Below are positions 49,199 to 53,557 of a stretch of 64,000 bases of DNA, piece after piece; positions within the stretch are counted from its first letter, which is position 1, and each line of letters starts with the position of its first letter. The DNA is taken from positions 1 to 64,000 of the forward strand of contig NC_017527.1 in NCBI RefSeq assembly GCF_000235565.1, read 5' to 3'. The position numbers and the translations under genes were made by a program. The notes beneath the pieces are model-generated. The model saw only the letters and a program-made list of their open reading frames with translations, was not told the DNA's origin and ran no database searches. Source of the DNA: Methanothrix harundinacea 6Ac (GTDB taxonomy: Archaea > Halobacteriota > Methanosarcinia > Methanotrichales > Methanotrichaceae).

Positions 49199-49687
49199 TC
49201 ATCCCACCCTAAGATCCGAGAAGCCCCACCGATCACCGGCGTAGCTTGCGAGCATCTTATATAACTCATCGAAAGAGATCGGAAGCCACGACCACTCGTC
49301 GACGGCGGAGCCGCCCCCCTCCTCGCCCTCCTCGGCGAGCCCCTCTTCCACCTCCAGGGGCTGGAGATAGCTGTGGAGCCGGTAGACCCTCTCGCCGACA
49401 GGGACCCGGTAGCAGTATAGGGTCCTGGTCGAGCCGTCGACCCCGCGGTACCAGGGAGGCGGCGGCTCGTCTCTGACTTTCCGGCCGCTGGTGGCGTACC
49501 TGAGGATGAACTCGTCCTTTATGGCGTAAAACCGGTCCCTAGACTGGGGGGATTCCGTCTTCACCATCTTGTTCGCGGCCCAGATCGCCTCGGCCAAAGC
49601 CTCCAGCTCATCGTCGAACTGGTCGCACCAGAGCCGCCACAGCTCCTGGCCGCCGAGTCCGGTCCGGAGTCGGAGTCTCGTCCTCAA
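49199..49687 (-). CDS. Hypothetical protein at the end of the ATPase-TPR cluster
   Basis: 162 residues if started at the TTG 49687; no ribosome binding site is obvious and the frame is open further upstream, so the N-terminus is uncertain. Helical, acidic and tryptophan-rich (ELWRLWCDQFDDELEALAEAIW; DEWSWLP near the end), with no signal peptide or recognised domain. It follows the small helical gene by 114 bases on the same strand and may belong to the same unit. Confidence 0.55.
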   Translation of the reverse strand: MRTRLRLRTGLGGQELWRLWCDQFDDELEALAEAIWAANKMVKTESPQSRDRFYAIKDEFILRYATSGRKVRDEPPPPWYRGVDGSTRTLYCYRVPVGERVYRLHSYLQPLEVEEGLAEEGEEGGGSAVDEWSWLPISFDELYKMLASYAGDRWGFSDLRVG

Positions 49688-49801
49688 AGTAGGGGATGCA
49701 AAGATCCGTCCCGCTGAAAAACCCTTCCCCTTTGTCTTCCCTTTTTTCGCGCCCTTCCCCTCGATCGCCCTGTTTTTGCGGGCGCTGGTTCTGCTTGCCG
49801 C

Positions 49802-50095
49802 TTACGTGTTCTGCCCCGCAGGGCCCTTCGACCGGGAGTCGGCGAAGTAGGCGTCGATATCCATGTCCATGTCCGCCTTCATCACCACCCAGCCGGTGAT
49901 GTGCCCGGCGAGGAACGCCATCCTCTCCCCCTCGGTCTTTGCGAACCGATCGAGGGCCCGCTGGAGGAGGTCGTGGGTGTCTTTCGAGCTTGCGAGGATC
50001 TCCTCGATGACGACCCGGTTCACCAGGTCGCACTCCTCTTGGGATAGGCGGAAGATCTCGGCAATTCTTCGTTTCATTATAGCTTCATCTTTCAT
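49802..50095 (-). CDS. Small helical protein encoded after the TPR protein
   Basis: 97 residues from the ATG at 50095, with GGAGG about ten bases upstream; the longer frame from 50209 overlaps the TPR gene and is not supported. It is predicted almost entirely helical (IMKRRIAEIFRLSQEECDLV, LQRALDRFAKTEGERMAFL) with an acidic MDMDIDAYF segment near the C-terminus. No known family. It begins 19 bases after the TPR gene ends, so it is probably a third component of that operon. Confidence 0.65.
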   Translation of the reverse strand: MKDEAIMKRRIAEIFRLSQEECDLVNRVVIEEILASSKDTHDLLQRALDRFAKTEGERMAFLAGHITGWVVMKADMDMDIDAYFADSRSKGPAGQNT

Positions 50096-50114
50096 CGACG
50101 GTGGGCCTCCGGGG

Positions 50115-52136
50115 TCACGTTTCGTTTCCCTCCGACATTTTTTCAACCGCGATCTTCTTCTCCAGTCGTTCCCGGACATAGCGGGCGTTTTCCGCCGTGG
50201 GACTTTCAAGCTTCATGAAGAGCGCCTCTGCCTCGCGGATCAGGTCTAGGGCCTGCTCCAGGTTGCCTTCCTCTTCCTCCAAAAGAGCACTTTGGGCTAA
50301 AGCGAAGGCGATGCCTGTCTTGTCGTCAAGATCCTGGGCGATCTTCAGACTATCACCATAAAGGCTAAGAGCCTTTTTCAGTTCCCCAGAATTCTGGGCC
50401 AAAACTCCCAAATTGAATAGCGACTTTAGGAAGGTGCTCTTGTCCCCGAGTTCTTTGGAGATTTTCAGACTTTCACCATAGAGACGCTTCGCCTCACCGA
50501 TATCGCCAGAAAGCTGAGCAAGAAGCCCCAACTGGTGCAAAGACCGTGAGATTCCACTCATGTCGCCCAGATCCTGTAAAATCTTCAAGCTATCGCCGTA
50601 AAGATGGTAGGCCTCAGCGATATCGCCCCTTGCCTGCGCAAGCACACCCAGTTGATGAAGCGACCTTGCTATGCCGCTCATATCCCCTAGATCTTCGGAG
50701 ATTTTCAGGCTCTCGTTAAAGAGGCGGTTGGCTTCCGTCAGATCACCACTACGCTGTGCCAATATCCCACACTCATGTAGTGAAATAGCTATGCCGCTCT
50801 TGTCACCAAGCTCTCGTTTGATCTTAAGGCTCTCTCCATAGAGGCGGCGCGCCTCCGAAATGTCACCGGTGTCATATGCTAGCATCCCAAGTTGGTGTAG
50901 TGACGATGCTATACCGCTCTTATCGCCTAATTCTGATGCGATCTTAAGCCCCTCATTATAAAAGCGGCCCGCCTCGACTATATCGCCGGTAGCCTGCGCT
51001 ATAGCGCCTAGATTGTGTAGCGATTTTGAGATAGTGCTCTTGTCCCCAAGCTCCTCAGATATCTTAAGGCTCTCTTCGTAGAAACGACGCGCTTCGACGA
51101 TGTCACCGGTGGCCTGTGCAAGCATTCCAAGTTGATGCAATGACCTCGCAACGCCGCTCTTATCGCCCAGATCCTGTAATATCTTCAGGCTCTCGCCGTA
51201 GAGGCGGCGGGCCTCGGTGATGTCGCCAGTCGCCTGTGCCAGCATTCCAAGTTGGTGCAGCGATCTTGAGACAGCGCTCTTATCACCCAGCTCCCGTGCA
51301 ATCCGAAGGCTCTTGCAATGGAGGCGGCAGGATTCAGCGATATCACCTCTATCCTTTGCCAGAATCCCAAGCTGGTGTAGTGACCTTAAAACGCCCCTAT
51401 TATAGTCAATCTCCTCGCTAAGTTTCAATTCATGTTTCAGATAATCTGAGGCGTTATCATAGTCGCCTAAATTATAAGAGATCTCACCAAGTTCATCCAA
51501 AATCTTGACTGTTTCCTTCTCATCCTTCACCTTTTCAAGGAGGTACTCGTTAATCCTCCTCCGCCTCAGAAGATCCTCCTTGCTCTGATAACGAAGAGAT
51601 GTGGCCAGAACATCGATCGCCTCGAAGACAGGGCCCCGGTCGCGCCCCTTAAGCTCGTAATAGTTCCCCCTGTACCTCCAGAAGTCTGGGGCTCTTCTTA
51701 TCACGTCGTCTAGAAAGCTCTGGCTCATAAATACGAGGCTGGGAACCCCCGAATCGTAAAATAGTTCCCGGAAGTTGTTCAGCGCATCCGCCAGCTCCTC
51801 GGTGAGCTTTTCAGGCATCGTCCAGATACGCACACCGGCGTCGCCGAAATCTCCGCTCTTCAGGCTCTGTATTACGTCTTCGCCATCTTCGACAGCGATT
51901 ACTTTCGTCCTGAATCTGCGGCTCAAGGTCCGGATGATCCCGTCCCGGTAAGCTGGGGCGTTGACGACGCAGATTATGAGGTTGCCCCTACCCTTCGAGA
52001 CCTCCAGCTCCGCGATGATGGTATCGATCTCTTCCAGGTCTTCAGTCCTCGCTTCCTCTAATCCTGAATCTTCAATTCTCGCGTCTTCGATCCTCGCGGC
52101 TTCAGCCTTCGCGTCTTCTATTCTTGCATCTTCCAT
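50115..52136 (-). CDS. TPR protein with STAND-like N-terminal domain
   Basis: About 673 residues from the ATG at 52136. It starts with a repetitive, charged ARIED-type helix (about 1-30). An alpha/beta domain (about 40-165) follows with NLIICVVNAPAYRDGI and a strand-helix end VFMSQSFLDDVIRRAPDFWRYRGNYYEL; this resembles the piece found between P-loop and TPR arrays in bacterial STAND-like proteins. A short helical linker leads to eleven 40-residue TPRs (about 208-647), consensus SLHQLGMLAQATGDIxEARR. No catalytic site is recognised. The start lies 18 bases inside the ATPase gene, so the two proteins are translationally coupled and probably form one complex. Confidence 0.82.
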   Translation of the reverse strand: MEDARIEDAKAEAARIEDARIEDSGLEEARTEDLEEIDTIIAELEVSKGRGNLIICVVNAPAYRDGIIRTLSRRFRTKVIAVEDGEDVIQSLKSGDFGDAGVRIWTMPEKLTEELADALNNFRELFYDSGVPSLVFMSQSFLDDVIRRAPDFWRYRGNYYELKGRDRGPVFEAIDVLATSLRYQSKEDLLRRRRINEYLLEKVKDEKETVKILDELGEISYNLGDYDNASDYLKHELKLSEEIDYNRGVLRSLHQLGILAKDRGDIAESCRLHCKSLRIARELGDKSAVSRSLHQLGMLAQATGDITEARRLYGESLKILQDLGDKSGVARSLHQLGMLAQATGDIVEARRFYEESLKISEELGDKSTISKSLHNLGAIAQATGDIVEAGRFYNEGLKIASELGDKSGIASSLHQLGMLAYDTGDISEARRLYGESLKIKRELGDKSGIAISLHECGILAQRSGDLTEANRLFNESLKISEDLGDMSGIARSLHQLGVLAQARGDIAEAYHLYGDSLKILQDLGDMSGISRSLHQLGLLAQLSGDIGEAKRLYGESLKISKELGDKSTFLKSLFNLGVLAQNSGELKKALSLYGDSLKIAQDLDDKTGIAFALAQSALLEEEEGNLEQALDLIREAEALFMKLESPTAENARYVRERLEKKIAVEKMSEGNET
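50196..51515 (-). repeat. Eleven tandem 120-bp repeats encoding TPRs
   Basis: The coding sequence repeats with a 120-base period (40 codons). The seven or so central units keep long identical stretches, including SLHQLG, GDKSG and YGESLKI blocks; the outer units are more diverged. This suggests recent expansion by unequal recombination. Confidence 0.85.
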
Positions 52137-53380
52137 TTTTCCACCAGGGGAAGAAGCAGCGGATCTACGTCGCACCATCTTCCGTTCTCGTCCTCGTACT
52201 CGACGGCCGTCAGGCTGAAGAGAAGCTCTCTGCTTATGCCATCGTCCTTGTCCAGGTCGCGGGCCTCCTTCGATTCGTGGATCGCCAGAGCCCTGCGCTT
52301 GTGGGCCTCGGTGAGGGTTCTGTCGTAAGTCCTCCTCAGCTTCTCAAGGGCGCTCTCCACGTCCTCGTTCACTATCTTTTCTCTCTTATTTCGGTAAGCC
52401 TTGATCGTGGCGTCTCTCATGATCGAGACGAACTCCGAGAGCTTTCCGGTGGAGAGGATAGCCTCGTCCAGAACGGCGTCGTCGATCAGGTGATCCTCCA
52501 TCCGGTTTCTTACAACGGATCTGTAAAAGCCGAGGTTCGTCTCGTTTCTGCTGCCGTCTCTGTTGATCACCGGAAGCTGCGGCAGGATTATAGCGTCGTC
52601 GAAGGCGGGCCTGACGTTCTCGAAGTAGGGGTTGAAGGTGAGGGGGATAGGGAAGGTGTAAATCACAAAACAGCTCGGCTGGGTGAGAAGCTCGTAGTTC
52701 TTGTAGAAGAACTCCTCCGCCTGCTCGACGCGGGTGAGCTTGTCCAGGTCGTCGACGATGACGACGAGCTTCTTATCGGTCTTATCCTCTACGTCGACGA
52801 TCAGCCAGTTGAGCCTCTGGATGAGGTCGCTGATCTGCATCTCCAGCTCTTTTCGGACGTATTCCCGGGTCTTCGCCTCTCGACCCAGCTTCAGGAGGAG
52901 AACTTTGGCGAGGGTCAAAGAGATCCCCGCGGCTCTGGACCCGGAAACCTCATCCTCTTCGACCTTTGTGATGCGCTTTACGAAATCCTTGAAGTCCTCC
53001 TCGATGTCCCGGTTGAGCTTGACGCCGTCGACCTCTGCCCTGTCGTAGATCATCAGGGCCATCGAGACGAAGAAGTCTCGAAAGTCGAAGTCGCTGACGT
53101 TCAGCTGGTCACGGATCGAGTAGCTGACCACAAGAAACCGGTGGGGATCGATCATATCAAGAAGCCGGTTCAGCTCCGTGCTCTTCCCCGAACCCCTGAA
53201 CCCGAGAAAGAGGTACTTCTCCTTCCGATCCGAGATCTCGATCCGGTCCCTCAGCTCCTCGATGGGGGATGGCGCCTTCGCCGGCCTCTCGACGTAAAAA
53301 TCCCTGAACTCCTCCGCGGTCTCTAGCGGCTCCACCACCAGGTTGTTGTAGGCCTCTTTCAAGTTCTTCGCCTTCGGCAT
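52118..53380 (-). CDS. P-loop ATPase of AAA/STAND type
   Basis: 420 residues. Walker A GFRGSGKST (60-68) and Walker B VVIVDDLDK (206-214) are intact; a sensor-like SxxxSTGKLSEF and a helical lid region (about 310-380) follow. The pattern resembles ORC/Cdc6- and NACHT-like ATPases used as switches. The C-terminal 50 residues overlap the ribosomal start of the TPR gene. No DNA-binding or nuclease domain is visible. Together with the TPR partner it looks like a STAND regulator divided over two genes. GAGGGGATC precedes the ATG. Confidence 0.82.
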   Translation of the reverse strand: MPKAKNLKEAYNNLVVEPLETAEEFRDFYVERPAKAPSPIEELRDRIEISDRKEKYLFLGFRGSGKSTELNRLLDMIDPHRFLVVSYSIRDQLNVSDFDFRDFFVSMALMIYDRAEVDGVKLNRDIEEDFKDFVKRITKVEEDEVSGSRAAGISLTLAKVLLLKLGREAKTREYVRKELEMQISDLIQRLNWLIVDVEDKTDKKLVVIVDDLDKLTRVEQAEEFFYKNYELLTQPSCFVIYTFPIPLTFNPYFENVRPAFDDAIILPQLPVINRDGSRNETNLGFYRSVVRNRMEDHLIDDAVLDEAILSTGKLSEFVSIMRDATIKAYRNKREKIVNEDVESALEKLRRTYDRTLTEAHKRRALAIHESKEARDLDKDDGISRELLFSLTAVEYEDENGRWCDVDPLLLPLVEKWKMQE

Positions 53381-53557
53381 ATCGATGATCCCCTCTGCTC
53401 CAAGATCGGATCCCGTTCACCATCAAGAAATGATCCCATGCTCAATAAATCTACCTCTGCCGCCACCCAGAAGAGTATCTGCTCAGCGTCTCAGACCAAA
53501 ACCGCAGATCAAAAAAGATATTCAAGGCAGATCCATCTCTGCCCGCCAATCCTCGAA

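Follow-up and report, generated by a model that had tools for sequence, protein, structure and literature searches.

STAND proteins derive from an ORC-type clade of NTPases, the clade matched by the model of the ATPase described below, and one of their described forms, nSTAND2, is a mobile two-gene operon that encodes an active STAND module together with an eroded one; the modules most often fused to its inactive subunits are GT4 and HEPN, and it has been described as bacterial (Kaur et al. 2021, PMC8195603). In iSTAND, an inactive STAND-type domain forms the third, sensing component of MoxR-vWA ternary conflict systems (Kaur et al. 2020, PMC7159879). Immune signaling in archaea is poorly charted (PMC12988326). 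We analyzed a stretch of 64,000 nucleotides from Methanothrix harundinacea 6Ac (GCF_000235565.1; contig NC_017527.1, positions 1-64,000), termed the window, whose genome is labeled G000. Within it, two overlapping genes encode an ORC/STAND-like P-loop ATPase and a protein in which an alpha/beta domain, termed ND, is followed by TPRs. The ATPase and the ND-TPR protein form a conserved two-gene unit. The explanation that we favor, and regard as fairly probable, is a laterally spread, two-subunit STAND-type NTPase switch that most probably serves conflict signaling, either antiviral or self/non-self.

The preliminary description of this locus had reported three open reading frames (ORFs), intact Walker A and Walker B motifs in the ATPase, a 19-base overlap between the ATPase and TPR genes, a 97-residue ORF 19 bases further on, and an alpha/beta domain with eleven TPRs in the second protein. 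All of these were recovered, on the minus strand, including exactly eleven TPRs built of 40-residue units. The conservation and P-loop-like fold of ND, a 162-residue ORF that accompanies the 97-residue one, and a second pair at 1.89 Mb in the same genome are new to the present analysis. Statements about folds refer to AlphaFold models compared with Foldseek, and motif counts refer to 60 aligned relatives for the ATPase and to 59 domains for ND. The pair comprises the following features.

52118..53380, minus strand: subunit 1, ORC/STAND-like P-loop ATPase of 420 residues, with a P-loop domain, a helical lid and a C-terminal winged-helix-like region
53171..53203, minus strand: Walker A, GFRGSGKSTEL, ATPase residues 60-70; the motif G..G.GK[ST][TVS]EL is present in 60/60 relatives
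52742..52762, minus strand: Walker B, VIVDDLD, ATPase residues 207-213; D213 is at least 90% conserved
52118..52136, minus strand: 19-nucleotide overlap of the ATPase stop with the start of the partner gene; the partner overlaps or nearly abuts at nearly all related loci
50115..52136, minus strand: subunit 2, ND-TPR protein of 673 residues, start ATG at 52136
51522..52019, minus strand: ND, residues 40-205; predicted five-stranded alpha/beta P-loop-type fold, Walker motifs absent (AlphaFold, Foldseek)
51765..51782, minus strand: ND motif LNNFRE, residues 119-124; Arg in 59/59 and Asn in 57/59
51678..51692, minus strand: ND motif APDFW, residues 149-153; A in 59/59 and D in 58/59
50181..51500, minus strand: eleven 40-residue TPRs, residues 213-652, presumed sensor; Tandem Repeats Finder (TRF) period 120, Pfam TPR_12 E=5e-63

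Scanning 84,980 genomes of species yielded at least 543 relatives, the best 80 loci of which were examined for a partner, with ND called by iterated profile search. A downstream partner was readable and adjacent at 73 of these loci, and in 72 of the 73 it contained ND; the hosts were archaea, Chloroflexota, Cyanobacteria, Lachnospiraceae and others. The exceptions among the best 80 were L102, in which ND lay one gene further on, L066 and L122, with truncated NDs, L083, which stops at a contig edge, and L107, L109, L125 and L126, with no ND beside the ATPase. Among 295 evenly drawn Halobacteriota genomes, 32 of 38 NDs adjoined an ATPase; both genes were found in 23 genomes, the ATPase in 25 and ND in 27. 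Six NDs in this sample were not paired, including two beside remnants of a deleted ATPase (L196 and L199) and two that were solo, near STAND-TPR-type genes (L200 and L201, with NB-ARC in L200). Of 50 genomes of the order, 16 had the ATPase, and nearly all complete loci consisted of the ATPase and an overlapping ND-TPR gene. The divergence of ND was correlated with that of the ATPase (Spearman 0.38, permutation maximum 0.12; 0.26 versus 0.18 for divergent pairs), a figure to which shared host ancestry contributes.

The second pair in the window's own genome, at ~1.89 Mb (L030 5890-8761), is divergent, with an ATPase 35% identical to that of the window; helicase-like and ABC-transporter-like genes lie nearby. 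ND was numerous in filamentous cyanobacteria, where several genomes held 10-13 NDs each (maximum 13), both as ATPase-ND pairs and as solo NDs. Stand-alone ND proteins of 165-215 residues with no ATPase alongside were also seen there (L240, L245, L247 and L248). At four loci (L196, L199, L205 and L206), the ATPase was internally deleted or fragmented beside the gene for ND, which suggests that the ATPase decayed whereas ND persisted. The ND-ATPase family has no family entry in Pfam, NCBIfam or PADLOC, and no paper on the pair was found among the open-access papers searched.

The window ATPase retained both Walker motifs, as is expected of STAND/ORC-clade NTPases. Its model (predicted local distance difference test [pLDDT] 91, predicted template modeling score [pTM] 0.89) showed an ORC/STAND-type fold that ends in helical and winged-helix regions at the C terminus. 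Structural matches were to archaeal Cdc6/Orc1, TnsC, CED-4 and SSO1545, with E values of 8e-8 to 7e-5 and template modeling (TM) scores of ~0.4-0.57. These predictions point to a member of the ORC/STAND clade with an ORC/Cdc6-STAND-like fold, closest to that of Cdc6/Orc1. By sequence, the ATPase stayed below the cut-offs of the curated models: the best Pfam match was AAA_22 (21.9 bits, cut-off 27), the best NCBIfam match was the Sll1717-family ATPase (26.6 bits, cut-off 75), and the ORC1 model gave 25.5 bits (cut-off 354). No curated STAND model (NB-ARC, NACHT or nSTAND) passed its cut-off, with nSTAND5 and NACHT appearing below cut-off in relatives, and a search of PDB sequences returned nothing significant. 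The copy in G011 (L032 7410-9835) has a broken Walker A, GFRGLEKSTEL.

The ND-TPR gene has another in-frame ATG at 52178, which would give a larger overlap with the ATPase gene. The model of ND, a confident one (mean pLDDT 89), had its strands and helices in the order seen in P-loop domains, and its top Foldseek matches were MuB, ClpL, the clamp-loader delta subunit, a gamma-related protein and IstB, with ORC ranking lower. A Walker A string was present in just 1 of the 59 NDs. The family is marked by two motifs, LNxxRE and APDFW, in which Arg and Ala are invariant and Asn and Asp nearly so. No Pfam model covered ND, and PADLOC gave no match to it. With moderate confidence, we predict ND to be an inactive AAA+/STAND domain. 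One ND-TPR protein (L253 4283-5878) has a hydrophobic, possibly membrane-spanning end and may be a membrane-acting variant.

Most partner proteins consisted of ND and TPRs, and in cyanobacteria WD40 propellers took the place of the TPRs. ND was also fused to NACHT-TPR-cNMP-binding-cyclase (L085 and L116), NACHT-TPR (L089), NB-ARC-TPR (L092), nSTAND1 (L101) and EAD1-TPR (L118), where EAD1 is among the effector-associated domains that Kaur et al. (PMC7159879) describe for conflict systems. The multiple paired and solo copies in filamentous cyanobacteria resemble the pattern described for such effector-associated domains. In Nostoc sp. C057, plasmid p057_J (L025) carries the ATPase domain C-terminal to SAV_2336-N and beside VMAP and MoxR-like genes, in the effector position of what seems to be a ternary conflict system. 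A Methanotrichaceae copy (L039) has TIR-NB-ARC-TPR and calcineurin-TIR genes alongside. Flanking genes were otherwise unrelated from locus to locus. Relatives were present in eight plasmid records, all cyanobacterial. Viral contigs and phage records yielded no relatives, so the idea of a virus-borne element found no support. In G011 (L032 7410-9835), a gene for a TnpB-like transposase separates the PNPOx gene from the ATPase; it adjoins this copy only and is not conserved, and a transposase linkage was rejected.

The distribution of the pair was patchy, as the counts for order and phylum show, and close copies (60-70% identity) linked Methanothrix, Methanoperedens and ANME-1 (anaerobic methanotrophic archaea). 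In the ATPase tree, bacterial phyla were interleaved; being a quick tree built from bins, it does not prove transfer. The module had a G+C content of 0.52-0.56, below that of the window (0.61) and of the neighboring cobB (0.67). We infer that lateral transfer underlies the patchy distribution and that the module is often lost. Between G000, G007 and G011, identity fell from the ATPase (93-96%) to ND (83-84%) and to individual TPRs (60-78%), and the TPRs numbered 11, 4 and 6, respectively; where drafts are concerned, these differences may be artefacts of assembly caused by short-read collapse. The identity gradient and the change in TPR number are consistent with a conserved motor coupled to a fast-changing sensor.

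The two-subunit switch builds on the observed two-gene conservation, motif status, patchiness and links to conflict domains, together with model-predicted folds. Subunit 1 would be the ATPase with intact catalytic motifs, and in subunit 2 a P-loop domain that is probably dead would be joined to a repeat array. A heteromeric complex is most likely, in which ND would dock on the ATPase by analogy with inactive AAA+ subunits in clamp loaders or ORC. Sensing or binding of a trigger by the TPR array would lead to ATP-dependent reorganization and to the exposure or recruitment of an effector. Because the pair encodes no effector, the assembled complex would be expected to act itself or to recruit another protein through contacts mediated by ND or the repeats. 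The physical complex, the sensing of a trigger by the TPRs, the defense role and the recruitment of an outside effector are inferred steps. A role in conflict or defense is favored because of the domain company and turnover of the pair.

Several results weigh against this explanation. The structural matches of ND were weak (best E 6e-4, TM ~0.4), and the profiles of ND and the ATPase, compared with each other, showed no significant similarity, though their Walker B and sensor-1 strands align. PADLOC returned only weak matches of the ATPase to generic ATPases (mad8 and others); its matches across the window were likewise weak and generic, and the window is not recognizable as a defense island. 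In curated libraries, no model of a nuclease, TIR or other effector matched the window's pair, in agreement with what had first been noted, and no third gene was common to the related loci, where 17 co-directional neighbors shared no downstream effector. The possible artefact in TPR number belongs on the same side. Other parts of the preliminary description are changed by the present data. It had read the two large proteins as a single divided STAND unit: the conserved unit and the placement of the ATPase in the ORC/STAND clade bear this out, but the simple cut-in-two reading was dropped, since a degenerate P-loop-like domain is present in the partner itself and since in relatives ND is fused to complete NACHT, NB-ARC or nSTAND1 modules. 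The suggested connection to defense or signaling held, with relatives tied to conflict-system domains. Assignment of the ATPase to housekeeping Cdc6, which had been named as grounds for abandoning the proposal, does not apply: that fold is the nearest, yet the ORC1 score lies far under its cut-off and only 25 of the 295 phylum genomes have the family.

A broader form of the two-subunit switch can be put forward only tentatively. The pair might represent an uncatalogued NLR-like immune class of archaea and bacteria, in which an active ORC/STAND ATPase cooperates in trans with ND as an inactive P-loop adaptor carried on TPR arrays, WD40 propellers or complete NACHT/NB-ARC receptors, so that one ATPase design would serve many interchangeable sensors; the invariant Arg123 of ND is perhaps donated to the ATPase site.

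The same two-subunit architecture could instead serve ordinary cell regulation, such as stress responses, multicellular development or the assembly of protein complexes. The many copies in filamentous cyanobacteria, the unrelated, housekeeping-like flanks at most loci and the lack of an effector domain in the pair would all suit such a role, but the patchy presence with lost or decayed copies, the fusions to EAD1, NACHT, NB-ARC and nSTAND1 and the ATPase within a VMAP-MoxR system do not, and we consider regulation rather unlikely. Less probable still is a DNA-bound, ORC/TnsC-like ATPase module for replication, transposition or the control of transcription, regulated by the TPR protein. Cdc6/Orc1 and TnsC lead the structural matches of the ATPase, its winged-helix-like C-terminal region included, and MuB and IstB are among those of ND; against this, no conserved transposase or origin-linked gene lies beside the pair, the ORC1/Cdc6 sequence models are missed by far, and repeat partners and NLR fusions typify STAND signaling rather than replication.

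Two small genes flank the pair on its downstream side.

49802..50095, minus strand: 97-residue helical ORF, flanking and outside the module; kept without the pair in G009 (L138)
49199..49687, minus strand: 162-residue ORF, flanking and outside the module; conserved together with the 97-residue ORF

The 97-residue protein was found in 3 of the 295 phylum genomes, one hit being marginal, and only in the closest genomes. Both small ORFs (49199-50095, minus strand) travel together in G000, G007, G009 and G011, and neither matched a curated family above cut-off. In the sister genome G009 the 97-residue protein is 82% identical, yet the genome contains neither the ATPase nor ND. The G009 locus is collinear with the window, with cobB, two PNPOx genes and, within ~160 bp, the 97- and 162-residue ORFs; window bases 50063-53556, which correspond to the pair, are absent. 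Since this locus keeps the small genes without the pair, the pair is a discrete, dispensable unit and the 97-residue gene belongs to the flank. Loss of the pair in G009 appears more likely than independent insertions because the flank identity of G009 is nearest to that of the pair-bearing G011. A three-gene split NLR, with the 97-residue protein as the effector or regulator first suggested, is therefore highly improbable: the 19-nucleotide gap, the shared orientation and its place beside the pair in G000, G007 and G011 speak for it, but it was rejected on co-occurrence, the other pairs examined having no homologue, and on the G009 site, which lacks exactly the pair. In some Methanotrichaceae, a conserved frame judged by eye to be carboxymuconolactone-decarboxylase-like follows the ND-TPR gene (L038 1503-1934, L042 9338-9838). 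Scans for promoters and terminators gave counts close to chance.

Compared with known systems, the pair is a variant of STAND and inactive-STAND systems, nearest to nSTAND2 and iSTAND. Archaeal Orc1/Cdc6 resembles the ATPase in fold and, weakly, in the sequence of the lid region, but the ATPase is not found universally, belongs to a two-gene operon that also encodes a repeat protein, and scores far under the family cut-off. Some ATPase relatives pass the Pfam KAP_NTPase cut-off of 20 bits (L094 27.0, L102 33.1, L116 22.4 and L025 34.4), whereas the window ATPase falls below it (16.1). Classical STAND/NLR proteins (AP-ATPase/NB-ARC, NACHT and MalT) likewise link an NTPase switch to TPR or WD40 repeats; the pair differs in splitting the NTPase and repeats over two polypeptides and in the degenerate P-loop-like domain of its repeat protein. 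With iSTAND it shares an inactive STAND-type domain as the sensing component of a multi-gene conflict system, but its partner is an ORC/STAND-like ATPase. No adjacent MoxR and vWA genes were seen at the window or at most related loci examined, the ATPase lying inside such a system at L025 only. PADLOC gave no match to BrxB-type iSTAND of BREX and, for other catalogued defense proteins, nothing beyond the weak generic matches of the ATPase. The likeness to nSTAND2, drawn from description and architecture rather than from sequence, lies in a two-gene operon of one active and one inactive P-loop/STAND subunit with variable fused modules, the fold of ND being that of a predicted model. The inactive subunit of the pair differs in bearing TPR, WD40 or whole NLR modules; no GT4 or HEPN fusion was found among the ND proteins scanned (TPR, WD40, NLR modules and EAD1), the remainder being judged by eye, and the pair is also archaeal. 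Set beside these systems, the pair would add a compact, widespread candidate, present in methanogens and ANME archaea as well as in Lachnospiraceae and filamentous cyanobacteria and missed as a family by Pfam, NCBIfam and PADLOC, and it would show how a dead P-loop domain can act as a swappable adaptor that connects an ATPase to many sensors.

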